From positions 1 through 38,098 of the forward strand of contig CALXDD010000030.1 of assembly GCA_944386985.1 (NCBI GenBank): 38,098 nucleotides of DNA, read 5' to 3'. Below are positions 1,452 through 38,098 of this stretch, one piece after another (position 1 is the stretch's first letter; each line of letters starts with the position of its first letter). The translations under genes and the position numbers were made by a program. Origin of the DNA: an uncultured Oscillospiraceae bacterium (GTDB lineage: Bacteria; Bacillota; Clostridia; Oscillospirales; Oscillospiraceae). The notes beneath the pieces were generated by a model. The model worked only from the letters and a program-made list of their open reading frames with translations. It had not been told where the DNA came from and ran no database searches.

Positions 1452-1557
1452 ATTGTTTGCCTCCTAAATCTATAGAAAAATTATTATTAACAAATGAAAT
1501 TTGGAATACGCAATTTTTTGCCCGAAGGGCAAATGATTTCAAATCATTTTTCCAAGG

Positions 1558-21777: not shown

Positions 21778-23730
21778 TTACTCCGCCGCCACCGCCTGGA
21801 AGAGGCGGTAGATGGTCATGTAGGACTGCTCCCGGGTGTAATTCCCTCTGGGGGAGAAGTTGTTGCTGCCGGTGCCGTTCATCACGTTGATGCCGCAGAC
21901 GAAGTTCACCGCATCCTGGAAGATGGAGCTGATGGCGCTGCCGTCGTTGAACTGGATGGCCTCCGCCTGGGTGGTGTCCATGCCCAGCACCTTGGCGGCC
22001 CGGGCCAGGAACGCGGCGGCCTCCTGGCGGGTGATGGAGGCGTAGGGGTCAAACTTGCCCTCGCCCCGGCCGTTGACGATGCCCAGGGCGTAGGCGGCGA
22101 TGACGTCGCTGTCCGTGGCGTCATAGAAGGGGTACTCCTGCTGCCACTGCTCCAGGGTCTTGCCGGTCTTCTCCTTCACGATCACATCGATGTCCTTGCC
22201 CATGGTCTCGCTGACGGCCTGGATGGTCAGATCGCAGAACTCGCCCCGGTTGATGGCGTTGTGATAGAGGTTCTGGAGGTAGGTGGGCACCAGGTTCTCC
22301 TCGATGGCGGCGGTGACCTCCTCATAGGCCCAGCCGCTCATGTCGCTCTTTTCGGGCAGGGCGGGCTGGTAGCTGATGTGGCCAAAGCCGTACTTGCCGT
22401 TCTCCTGGATCACCACATACTCGCTGGGGGCGTAGACCACGGGGGTATCACCGCCCTCCACCTCCTGGAAATAGGTGTCCGGGTCCAGCTTGTCCGCGCC
22501 GGGCACGGCGCTGCCCTTGCTGTCGATGACGTAGGCCTTGCTGCCGTCATACACCACCGCGTAGCCGTCGTCGCCAAAGCCGGTGGTCTGGGCGTACTGG
22601 GCGGGGATGGCCACGCTGCCGTTCTCATCCAGGAAGCCCCACTTGCCGTTCTGCTCAAAGGCGGCCAGACCGAAATTGTAGCTATACAGGTAGTCGTACT
22701 GGAAGGGAATCACCGTCTGGCCGGACTTGTTGATAGCCCCCCACTTGCCGTTGGGATTCTCCACCATGGCAAGGCCCGTAACGCCGAAGACCTCATAGTC
22801 GCCGTACACGTCGGAGACCCGGAAGTCGGCGTAGGCGGGCTGGATGATGAACTTGCCGGTGGCGTCAATGACGCCCCAGCGGCTGGTAACCTCGCCGGTG
22901 GCAATGCTCTCACTGCGGACGCCCACCCAGGCCATGCCCTGGTTGAAGGGCCGCAGATCTGTGTAGACGTAAGCCGTCTCCGAGGACTCCACGGGAACAG
23001 TGAGGGTCTGGCCGGTCTTCAGGTTCAGATACTTCTGATCGCCGCCGGCGGCCGCAAAGATCCCCACGATCAGGGTGTTTTCCGTCACCTGCCAGCCGTA
23101 GGGGTCATACCAGGAGACGCTGTCATCGGCCAAGGGCAGATCCACCGCCCTGCCGGTGGTGTCAAAGAGGTAGGCGCCGGCCTCGTCGGGGTCATAGAAG
23201 CTGATATAGCCGTTGTGGAAGGCCACCGCCGGGGACAGCGTCTCGTCGGTGGTGGAATAGCGAATGGGACCGGTGGTCAGATTGCCGGTCTCCTCGTCGT
23301 AGTAGCCGTTATAGAGAAATTGGGTCTCATTGCCCTTGGTGTCTACAAAGGCCATCTCATAGGTGGTGTACATCCGGCCGGTCTCCGTTCCCTCGCCGGT
23401 CACCCAGTCGTACTCCACCTCCGGATAGGTGTCTACCTTGGCGCCCACGATGGCGTAGCCCTCGCTGAACAGGCCGGCGATGTCATACCGGAAGGGGATG
23501 ACCACCTTGTTGTTCTCGTCGATGTAGCCCCACTTGCCGTTTTTCTCCACCGGGGCCAGACCGTCGCTGAACTGTCCTGCGTTGTCATACTGGGGAGCGA
23601 TGGCCTCTGTATAGGTCAATACGCCCCGCTCTCCCTCCTCCCCGGCGGCCAGGGCCGCCGCGGGCAGGGCGGTGACAGACAGACACGCCGCTGCAAACGC
23701 CGCCAGAATCCGCTTTTTCCAACTCTTCAT
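21778..23730 (-). CDS. Secreted WG-repeat protein with S-layer homology domains
   Basis: Predicted surface protein of 650 residues. Residues 1-29 are a signal peptide (KKRILAAFAAACLS, cleavage near ALA-AG). The middle part has WG (KWG) beta repeats: GKWGYIDENNKVVIPF near 65, GKWGAINKSGQTVIPF near 328 and GKWGFLDENGSVAIP near 362, with weaker copies between. The C-terminal 120 residues contain SLH-like motifs (AYALGIVNGRGEGKFDPYAS with ITRQEAAAFLARA, and INVMNGTGSNNFSPRGNYTR), which usually bind pyruvylated cell-wall polymer. GGAGAGG precedes the ATG. It has its own promoter. Its ligand or role is unknown; WG-repeat proteins are frequent in gut Clostridia. Confidence 0.93.
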   Translation of the reverse strand: MKSWKKRILAAFAAACLSVTALPAAALAAGEEGERGVLTYTEAIAPQYDNAGQFSDGLAPVEKNGKWGYIDENNKVVIPFRYDIAGLFSEGYAIVGAKVDTYPEVEYDWVTGEGTETGRMYTTYEMAFVDTKGNETQFLYNGYYDEETGNLTTGPIRYSTTDETLSPAVAFHNGYISFYDPDEAGAYLFDTTGRAVDLPLADDSVSWYDPYGWQVTENTLIVGIFAAAGGDQKYLNLKTGQTLTVPVESSETAYVYTDLRPFNQGMAWVGVRSESIATGEVTSRWGVIDATGKFIIQPAYADFRVSDVYGDYEVFGVTGLAMVENPNGKWGAINKSGQTVIPFQYDYLYSYNFGLAAFEQNGKWGFLDENGSVAIPAQYAQTTGFGDDGYAVVYDGSKAYVIDSKGSAVPGADKLDPDTYFQEVEGGDTPVVYAPSEYVVIQENGKYGFGHISYQPALPEKSDMSGWAYEEVTAAIEENLVPTYLQNLYHNAINRGEFCDLTIQAVSETMGKDIDVIVKEKTGKTLEQWQQEYPFYDATDSDVIAAYALGIVNGRGEGKFDPYASITRQEAAAFLARAAKVLGMDTTQAEAIQFNDGSAISSIFQDAVNFVCGINVMNGTGSNNFSPRGNYTREQSYMTIYRLFQAVAAE

Positions 23731-27886: not shown

Positions 27887-28158
27887 GGGGCCGCAGCCCC
27901 CAATCCCTGAGGTGCGGTCTCCTCGCGGCATAGCCGCTGTGGCCTACGCTACAAACATGCCACTGGCATGTTTGCTTAACGCTGCGGGGCACAGCCCCCG
28001 GTTCTTTCGCCCCCAGGCGAAAGAAGAAATTTCAATCATTTTTCCAAGGACATGCGCCTTGGAAAAATACGTTGACCCCAGCCGCCCTGGGCGGCGTCGC
28101 CAGTGACCGATGTCACTGGTGAGGGGGGAGGTCGAGGGGGGACGCAGTCCCCCTTCGA
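27887..28158 (-). repeat. Modular hairpin array, copy 2 (subunit F-A gap)
   Basis: Read along transcription the array starts six bases after the subunit F stop. It holds H1 (28132-28158), H2 (28099-28121, stem CCAGTGAC), H3 (28081-28095, GCCGCCCTGGGCGGC), H4 (28040-28068, TTTTTCCAAGG arms with loop CGCATGT) and H5 (28002-28026, TTCTTTCGCC/GGCGAAAGAA). H6 (27985-28000) follows. This copy then continues with extra palindromes not seen in copy 1: an 11-base CAAACATGCCA/TGGCATGTTTG at 27952-27974 and GGGGCCGCAGCCCC at 27887-27900. The array fills most of the 343-base gap inside the ATPase operon. Confidence 0.9.
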
Positions 28159-28164
28159 AAACCG

Positions 28165-28473
28165 TCAGCTGATGTCCGCTCCCACGGCTCTCTCCACAGC
28201 GCTCTGGAGGGCGGCCTGCCCGAGACCCAGAGAGCCGGTCTTGCCGGGAATCAGGATCACCGCCGGGGTGACGGAATCCTTGTAGCGATCCACCTCGCCG
28301 CTGATGAGCTGGGCCAGCTGCTCCGTAATGTAGATCACCGCGTAGTTCTCCTTGGCAAGGCGGTGGAGGGTGTGGCGGGCGGTGTCCGCATCCTCGGCAA
28401 ACACCACCTCCAGTCCCAGGGCCTTGAAGCCAAGGACGCTGTCCCTGTCGCCCAATACCGCGATCTTATACAT
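28165..28473 (-). CDS. ntpG: V/A-type ATPase subunit F
   Basis: Small central-stalk subunit of 102 residues that binds subunit D and can regulate activity. It starts MYKIAVLGDRDSVLGFKALG, a typical subunit F opening. It continues with YAVIYITEQLAQLI and PAVILIPGKTGSLGLG, which match the family core. The ATG at 28473 lies inside the end of the subunit C gene (8-base overlap), with only a weak GTGAGAG upstream, so coupled translation is likely. A hairpin array starts right after its stop codon. The name ntpG follows Enterococcus usage; the subunit itself is called F. Confidence 0.95.
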   Translation of the reverse strand: MYKIAVLGDRDSVLGFKALGLEVVFAEDADTARHTLHRLAKENYAVIYITEQLAQLISGEVDRYKDSVTPAVILIPGKTGSLGLGQAALQSAVERAVGADIS

Positions 28474-36841: not shown

Positions 36842-37126
36842 ATGAAACTGATCCCTCTGGCAGACCGTGTGGTGCTGAAGATGATGGAAGCGGAGGAGAC
36901 CACCAAGGGCGGCATCATCCTGACGGCTTCCGCCAAGGAGAAGCCCTCCGTAGCTGAGGTCATTTCCGTCGGCCCCGGCGGCACTGTGGACGGCAAGGAA
37001 GTCGTGATGACGGTGAAGCCCGGCGACAAGGTCATCTGCGAGAACTACGCCGGCAGCAAGGTGAAGATCGAGGACGAGGAGTACGTCGTCGTTCGGCTGA
37101 AGGAGATCATCGCCATCGTCGAGTGA
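36842..37126 (+). CDS. groES: Co-chaperonin GroES
   Basis: Ten-kilodalton lid of the GroEL folding chamber, 94 residues. The chain begins MKLIPLADRVVLKMMEAEET. The mobile loop TTKGGIILTASAKEKP binds GroEL, and VISVGPG and KPGDKVICENYAGSKVKI form the conserved barrel. GGAGGAATGAAACC stands before the ATG at 36842; a longer frame reaches into CIRCE and is rejected. It is the first gene of groES-groEL, but a hairpin array of about 175 bases starts four bases after the stop codon, making an unusually long gap for this pair. Confidence 0.97.
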   Translation: MKLIPLADRVVLKMMEAEETTKGGIILTASAKEKPSVAEVISVGPGGTVDGKEVVMTVKPGDKVICENYAGSKVKIEDEEYVVVRLKEIIAIVE

Positions 37127-37130
37127 TCTT

Positions 37131-37304
37131 TCGAAGGGGGACTTCGTCCCCCCTCGACCTCCCCCCCTCACCAGTGACGCCGGTCACTGGTGCCGCCGCC
37201 CAGGGCGGCGGGGGTCGGGGAATTTTTGTCAGGCGCATGTCCTGACAAAAATGATTGGATTTTCTTCTTTCGCCTGTGGCGAAAGAACCGGGGCTGCGGC
37301 CCCT
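37131..37304 (+). repeat. Modular hairpin array, copy 3 (groES-groEL gap)
   Basis: The array starts four bases after the groES stop. Order: H1 (37131-37156, TCGAAGGGGGAC/GTCCCCCCTCGA), H2 (37169-37192, CACCAGTGAC/GTCACTGGTG), H3 (37195-37209, GCCGCCCAGGGCGGC), H4 (37222-37252, ATTTTTGTCAGG/CCTGACAAAAAT with loop CGCATGT), H5 (37265-37287, TTCTTTCGCC/GGCGAAAGAA) and H6 (37288-37304). The H4 stem differs from copies 1 and 2 at three paired positions, each with the matching change on the other side, while the loop is identical. The rest of the gap to groEL holds only a small CGCGGAGTATTCCGC palindrome. Confidence 0.92.
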
Positions 37305-37379
37305 GGCCCCCCGTGGGGTTTGCGGGGGTTTTGTGTAAACAACGCGGAGTATTCCGCAAGGCTATATTTATGGAGGTAA

Positions 37380-38098
<719 letters not shown>

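Follow-up and report, generated by a model that had tools for sequence, protein, structure and literature searches.

Three hairpin arrays lie in the window, a 38,098-nt stretch of DNA from an uncultured Oscillospiraceae bacterium, and each begins with H1 in the sense of transcription just behind a stop codon, at the three operons named in the original prediction. Between groES (36842–37126, plus strand) and the N-terminal part of groEL (37386–38096, plus strand), which were called with a codon-based gene finder and whose orthologues in locus L107 are recognized by NCBIfam as GroES and GroEL, the plus strand carries H1 at 37131–37157, 4 nt past the groES stop that ends at 37126, followed by H2 (37169–37192), H3 (37195–37209), H4 (37221–37252; family core ATTTTTnnnAGGCRCATGTCCTnnnAAAAAT), H5 (37265–37287) and H6 (37289–37303); beyond H6 stands a terminator-like hairpin and then TTTTG (37308–37328, plus strand). 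The array between V-type atpF and atpA lies on the minus strand and opens with H1 at 28132–28158, 6 nt past the atpF stop (28165–28167), continuing through H2 (28100–28121), H3 (28081–28095), H4 (28038–28069) and H5 (28002–28025) to an upstream copy of H6 (27986–27999), a second element termed E2 (27902–27985) and a downstream copy of H6 (27887–27901). At grpE-dnaK, also on the minus strand, H1 ends at 1772, 6 nt past the grpE stop (1779–1781), and opens the first of two tandem H1-H2-H3-H4 units, which is broken off within H4 (1661–1772, covariance score 75.9 bits); the second unit (1538–1660) scores 139.9 bits, and the groES-groEL array is matched over 37131–37260 at 125 bits. The measured distances of 4, 6 and 6 nt agree with the expected start 4–7 bases past the upstream stop. 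The expected order H1-H2-H3-H4-H5 holds as to modules and succession, but it is not universal, given that grpE-dnaK is built of tandem units and closes with a hairpin (TTTGCCCTTCGGGCAAA, 1517–1533, minus strand) that differs in sequence from H5 of the other two arrays; the module list was also incomplete, as atpF-atpA adds a sixth hairpin, an 84-nt insert and a second H6 copy. A similar layout of E2 between H6 copies is seen in L070, L077 and L091, where the right copy has diverged.

In sense order, H1 is of the type TCAAGGGGG...CCCCCTTGA, H2 reads CACCAGT...ACTGGTG, H3 reads GCCGCC...GGCGGC or GCGCGC...GCGCGC, H5 reads TTCTTTCGCC...GGCGAAAGAA and H6 reads GGGGGCTGCGGCCCCC. The three arrays fold far better than their dinucleotide shuffles (z of −6.15, −6.90 and −7.07, with an equally good fold in 0 of 200 shuffles each). 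A single promoter scan of the groES-groEL region returned one weak site, 9 of 12, at 37226–37255. Elsewhere in the window, at 22591–23563, diverged repeats of about 60–78 nt lie within a single predicted coding region.

A covariance model of H1-H4 (R1), built from 8 copies, returned 35 matches with E no higher than 0.1 in the genome of the window. The 14 at the head of the list resemble sense copies; among the weak matches, many either echo a palindrome from the opposite strand or are additional weak matches next to a known copy. Across 60 genomes, 22 held matches at E of 0.01 or less, all 11 genomes of the window's genus among them, and the best score outside the genus in these 60 was 56 bits. 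The 11 genus genomes tallied 193 R1 matches, and the array counts rest on the matches listed: those of at least 44.9 bits were fetched with flanks as 94 stretches and rescored together with the window, 8 weak matches (31–39 bits, mostly opposite-strand echoes) were excluded before counting, and the final set of 110 hits, or at least 104 arrays, comprises the listed matches of at least 44.9 bits plus one of 41.2 bits. Genes were called with our own codon-based gene finder, and NCBIfam names, given to representatives only, include pgk and a partial gyrA that score under their curated cut-offs.

Among the matches listed, at least 104 arrays were placed in the 11 genus genomes and both neighbors were called for 94, of which 91 are sense to both co-directional genes, 2 are antisense to both and 1 is mixed, being sense to its upstream and opposite to its downstream gene; where a single neighbor was called (n = 10, again among listed matches), it was co-directional in 10 of 10. 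Both antisense arrays belong to one genome, G010, and stand immediately before a start codon. In 68 of the 95 listed arrays with a co-directional upstream gene, the start of H1 falls in the interval from −5 to +13 nt relative to the stop, and in 6 of these 68 it is at −3, with the stop codon inside the H1 foot. A 400-kb sample of the window's own genome contains 262 co-directional, 38 convergent and 38 divergent gene pairs; in this sample, the gene after a 3' end is co-directional with probability 0.775, against 91 of 92 for the listed arrays (p = 4e-9 if arrays were independent, which arrays at shared junctions are not). Two stretches, L142 and L144, represent the same junction of the same genome on two contigs and were each counted, whereas the pairs L071/L075, L085/L088 and L084/L089 may each be parts of one place, only L084 falling within the 94. 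In the window's genome, arrays coincide with contig ends (C2 start, C67 start and C68 end). Arrays probably break the assembly at contig ends and are hence under-counted, so that copy numbers are probably minima. Within the genus, then, the predicted uniform, stop-proximal and intra-operonic arrangement is borne out among the listed matches, and the copies are neither randomly oriented nor mostly located between operons.

These arrays, among the matches listed, group into 30 junction clusters, 20 of which are common to at least two species and 12 of which recur in 4–9 species; 28 hold arrays sense to both genes and the remaining 2 an antisense one. Best NCBIfam matches, drawn from part of the 30 clusters' representatives, name the junctions pheS-pheT, V-type atpF-atpA, ACT-protein-PRK05313, argJ-argB, groES-groEL, grpE-dnaK, rplA-rplJ, pgk-tpiA, purH-purD, prs-pth, argG-argH, ygeW-arcC, fabG-fabF, unnamed gene-prmC, aconitase-family hydratase-icd, rplI-dnaB, smc-ftsY, ftsY-rph, gyrB-gyrA and arcA-ornithine carbamoyltransferase. 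They are ordinary operon pairs with no rule of higher downstream demand, and the earlier suggestion of a downstream gene whose product is required in large quantity does not hold as a rule, as prs-pth, smc-ftsY, purH-purD, argJ-argB and the prmC pair are included.

Comparison of equivalent junctions reveals both occupied and array-free states. The gyrB-gyrA gap holds an array in one of the eight genus genomes read, that of the sister species G008, where it measures 263 nt; it is array-free at about 18 nt in the window's genome (G000), 12 nt in G002, 10 nt in G009 and 22 nt in G005, and no array was seen in the part of the gap read in three other genus genomes (gaps of 109, 422 and 882 nt). For groES, detected in 33 of 36 genomes with 30 loci compared, the gap to groEL is 195–514 nt in seven measurable genus genomes, the eighth being interrupted by a contig end, and at most 113 nt in 20 of 22 other genera (4 of the 22 judged by eye). 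The long-gap exceptions are L302, whose 185 nt contain an H4-like element of different build, and L308 (G016), with 171 nt. The L308 spacer is hairpin-rich and carries a different repeat (GGGCGAC...GTCGCCC) at this same junction in another genus. At argG-argH, a window-type array is present in G000, G004, G006 and G008, an H4 array with another middle module in G002 and G009 (L409, L410) and a degenerate H4 array in G003 (L411), and no array was recognized in G007, G005 or G001 (L407, L408, L412); the spacer of L407 is 432 nt long with a long internal direct repeat. The difference between occupied and array-free junctions is, we infer, one of insertion rather than loss.

What occupies a junction is more variable than the fact of its occupation. 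Array identity was 0.572 when one junction was compared across species (267 pairs), 0.545 when both junction and species differed (5216 pairs) and 0.580 between separate junctions within a genome (610 pairs), in a comparison of 111 rows that include at least one opposite-strand echo; some close species pairs are more alike at the same junction (0.72 vs 0.46; 0.79 vs 0.65). Array position is conserved more than array content.

Beyond the genus, H4 is shared between the window arrays and elements of other Oscillospiraceae. An exact H4 pattern scan with one genome per species gave at least 117 stretches, and the 80 listed bear titles of Oscillospiraceae, Ruminococcaceae or other Clostridia. Among the matches listed, these stretches contain 121 H4 places, some of them window-genus copies, with a co-directional gene upstream at 99, an opposite one at 13 and none called at 9, and with a co-directional gene downstream at 68, an opposite one at 41 and none called at 12; placement between divergent genes occurs at 2 of the 100 listed places with both neighbors called, both in L250-L286. 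Outside the window's genus, the near-constant feature is sense orientation behind a gene and not location within an operon. The intra-operonic placement originally proposed consequently describes the window's genus, while outside it many of the elements lie between convergent genes as well. Within the H4 loop, after GCGCA, a small element (CAAGGTGAATTGCCCC...) is found in L087, L088, L109 and L131, and inverted in L139.

Pseudoflavonifractor sp. MSJ-37 (G060) harbors 30 copies of an H4-bearing element with a full length of about 235–265 nt and inverted termini CAGCGTGTCGAA...TTTTTTGACAGNCTG, its ends being of the CAGNNTGTCRAAAA type. P. gallinarum DSM 107456 is a further carrier among isolates. 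A perfect flanking direct repeat of 14–41 nt accompanies 24 of the 30 copies, as against 1 of 870 swapped flanks. The repeat is a locus-specific hairpin, mostly the one behind the host gene: 16 of the 24 fold alone as a single hairpin, and the others resemble the identical portion of two slightly diverged hairpins. TTTT stands after the right-hand repeat copy in 14 of 24 cases but after the left-hand one in 2 of 24, the pattern expected if a terminator hairpin were duplicated while its T run stayed downstream. Similar flanking repeats are present at L185, L219 and L229, all in one further genome, and at L222 in yet another; random positions within these loci give at most 13 nt. In L358 (equal to copy L322 of MSJ-37), the left and right flanking hairpins have loops that are reverse complements of each other, as if one of the two hairpins had been inverted. 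The right end of the element has 25 matches in MSJ-37, 22 of them at known copies and the other 3 without a left end within about 1.5 kb. In the window's genus, the arrays lack a flanking repeat or second copy of H1, the longest shared string being 11 nt, and terminal inverted repeats of the kind met in MSJ-37 kin were not seen there; E2 between H6 copies may be a weaker parallel to the MSJ-37 duplication, at four loci of which three have a diverged right copy. Judged by their sequences, the MSJ-37 elements look mobile and appear homologous to the window arrays, mainly via H4 and its 3' side. Of the 30 copies, 28 are sense to the upstream gene, and as sense copies on contig C1 switch strand six times, orientation tracks genes and not the replication fork. 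The original argument held that a passive mobile element would appear in both orientations; these relatives, with inverted termini, flanking duplications and 28 of 30 copies in sense, contradict it, and orientation alone is therefore no argument against mobility.

Candidate movers were sought in four genomes for Y1 (PF01797), with no match in MSJ-37 or G006, one in G000 and two in G009. Y1 transposase genes at G000:C23:37099-37455 and G009:C8:62041-62397 (a 159-aa open frame) have one internal TGA each. Carriers without a Y1 match are rich in elements, with 30 copies in MSJ-37 and 23 R1 matches in G006. The single DDE_Tnp_1 (PF01609) match of MSJ-37 has no element ends in its 3.6-kb locus, and reverse transcriptase (RVT_1) has no match in G009. 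Y1, DDE_Tnp_1 and RVT_1 were each rejected as the mover, none being common to the carriers searched.

At the Rfam gathering threshold, the window gave 0 hits and 13 kin loci gave Gut-1 only, elsewhere in L210, with no intron domain; this Gut-1 RNA (RF01706, 56.1 bits) lies at L210:4900-4976 on the plus strand, about 1.5 kb from the H4 element in the same 8-kb stretch. Relaxed Rfam searches gave 9 hits for the groES-groEL array, the lowest E being 0.059 (Scr1601, sub-threshold), and 9 for L192, among them gyrA RNA on the flanking hairpins (E 6.7e-5, 27.8 bits where the cut-off is 45); all of these sub-threshold hits were taken as chance. The groES-groEL array had no match in plasmid and phage collections and the H4 pattern none in viral_contigs. 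H1 as a free-standing module was likewise discarded, in that of its 11 places in the window's genome 7 lie within R1 matches of at least 68 bits, 3 in matches of 18.9–27.9 bits and 1 in none. No description of this array family was found in the excerpts of open PMC literature consulted, those of PMC12320835 having no bearing on it. The absence of an Rfam match accords with the original prediction.

REP sequences are located close to where the upstream ORF ends, with a co-directional or convergent gene as the next neighbor, and sometimes provide the stop codon themselves (PMC3733652); the arrays resemble REPs and BIMEs in being mosaic groups of GC-rich palindromes that lie at the 3' ends of genes and in co-directional gene pairs, often directly at the stop codon (PMC3733652). 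They differ in forming a multi-hairpin unit of near-fixed sense orientation whose H4 is conserved, in lacking a GTAG/CGTC foot and in that no RAYT was found in MSJ-37 or G006, and further in that REPs within BIMEs alternate in orientation (PMC2817692) and the arrays do not. The MSJ-37 kin have, as do MITEs, terminal inverted repeats and a target-site duplication. Like IS1634 and IS1549, they combine inverted termini with long direct repeats of variable length, which in those elements range from 8 to 514 bp and for which the excerpted text gives no mechanistic model (PMC2266710). Unlike in those elements, the repeat in MSJ-37 mostly consists of the hairpin that stands behind the local gene; the IS1634 end consensus C-----YT is mismatched by CAGNNTGTC at position 7, and the DDE_Tnp_1 search of MSJ-37 found no matching transposase. 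Group IIC introns insert beside intrinsic terminators in fixed orientation; the elements differ in that no Rfam intron domain was found at gathering threshold in the window or the 13 loci and in that full-length MSJ-37 copies are about 235–265 nt long. REP hairpins near stop codons reportedly cause ribosome stalling, a finding attributed to Liang, Rudd and Deutscher in 2015.

Given their sense orientation, their stop-proximal H1 and the recurrence of the same junctions in 4–9 species for 12 of 30 clusters among the matches listed, the arrays could be cis-acting RNA elements that the host keeps to tune the two halves of a message through stability, processing or protein binding at the H4 loop. 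The loop AGGCRCATGTCCT is conserved, being fixed by the search pattern itself, and three H4 stem pairs covary; in 118 rows fitted to the model, 95.6% of cells pair, and in this fitted alignment both partners have changed in 34 of 35 pairs, against 20.3 in shuffles. Selection on the sense RNA would lead G-U pairs to exceed A-C mispairs, and the stems show no clear G-U excess: the counts are 65 G-T to 95 A-C over all stems in 110 rows, a surplus contributed by H1, where the alignment register is uncertain, 47 to 37 for H2-H4 without H1, and 4 to 3 for the three H4 pairs that are free to vary, across 171 distinct sequences drawn from all loci collected, these pairs otherwise showing 504 Watson-Crick and 2 other combinations. 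RNA-level selection is consequently not evident, and the stems do not support the original proposal of an RNA element separating the expression of neighbors. That distant species are hardly closer in content at the same junction than between junctions, that the junctions follow no common stoichiometry logic and that gyrB-gyrA is occupied in just one of eight genus genomes read weigh against host maintenance as well, and we regard it as unlikely. Transcription terminators or attenuators are considerably more improbable. A terminator role has been proposed for hairpin clusters that need no poly-U trail (PMC8355165), and although the original prediction had no module ending in a sense U tract, two sense terminator-like sites lie at groES-groEL, the hairpin with TTTTG at 37308–37328 and H4 itself at 37222–37252 (tail GATTGGATTT). 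Among the matches listed, such sites occur in sense in 38 of 91 arrays, compared with a fraction of 0.20 in shuffled sequence, but antisense sites are equally common (45 of 91, likewise above shuffled sequence), and the excess of sense over antisense that marks an intrinsic terminator is not seen; in H4, moreover, the T run belongs to the 5' arm and the A run to the 3' arm, and complete termination within pheS-pheT, gyrB-gyrA or atpF-atpA would presumably be costly.

Strict palindromes also fit a DNA-hairpin substrate, and the arrays might be purely selfish DNA that inserts anywhere, with purifying selection sparing the copies between stop codon and ribosome-binding site. Operon gaps of 10–22 nt leave only the stop-proximal position free, the strict Watson-Crick pairing suits such a substrate, and inserts are nested within H4 loops in both orientations. 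Selfishness does not by itself explain the sense orientation (antisense in 2 of 94, among the matches listed), nor does it explain why arrays are stop-proximal even at long-gap junctions such as ygeW-arcC, where about 150 nt extend beyond the array, and we consider this account rather doubtful. Classical REP sequences mobilized by a RAYT would share the genomic niche, the 3' end of an upstream ORF between co-directional or convergent genes (PMC3733652), but the alignment of 8 copies (A2), read by eye, has no fixed GTAG or CGTC unpaired foot, its stem-side linkers varying, and the Y1/RAYT domain had no match in MSJ-37 or G006, which makes this identity very improbable indeed.

The reading we favor, and hold to be somewhat probable, is that the arrays are a new REP/MITE-like palindromic family of the Oscillospiraceae, grown by nested insertion, transcribed in sense and acting as intercistronic hairpin barriers. 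Repeated H1-H2-H3-H4 units stand behind genes in near-fixed sense orientation, junctions that hold arrays are short and array-free in relatives, content differs at conserved positions, and inverted-terminus elements in relatives are flanked by the local gene's hairpin. Units would insert beside hairpins or stop codons and become targets in turn, such that arrays grow; the copies that survive would be those between stop codon and Shine-Dalgarno sequence. Because the arrays sit in transcribed 3'UTR or intercistronic RNA, effects on messages can be proposed: strong hairpins might shield the upstream message at its 3' end and might detach the downstream cistron, with translational coupling lost and cleavage possible. 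An experimental precedent is the cip-cel operon of Ruminiclostridium cellulolyticum, in which intergenic stem-loops direct cleavage and stabilize processed ends (PMC10311766). There too, stem-loops lie between operon genes; the abstract does not present them as a repeated or mobile family (PMC10311766). For the sense bias, either transcription-tied insertion or selection on RNA would do, and recurrence at the same junction in up to nine species could equally reflect a selected function.

A bolder extension of this family reading, possible though we doubt it more than we credit it, is that these are small mobile elements guided to their insertion sites by nucleic-acid structure and by transcription: they would target transcript-end hairpins and duplicate the whole hairpin, and in one genus they would have spread into essential operon junctions, their hairpins becoming intercistronic RNA elements. 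Whole-hairpin duplication would leave the host its terminator, and the element would then be transcribed in sense as 3'UTR. Should this hold, an abundant group of gut clostridia would carry a repeat that rewires essential operons with their genes unbroken, and the relatives of that repeat would copy whole hairpins behind genes on insertion. There would be a new insertion mechanism to find. Further, occupied and empty operon junctions would form a natural series for studying intercistronic hairpins and the expression of paired genes.
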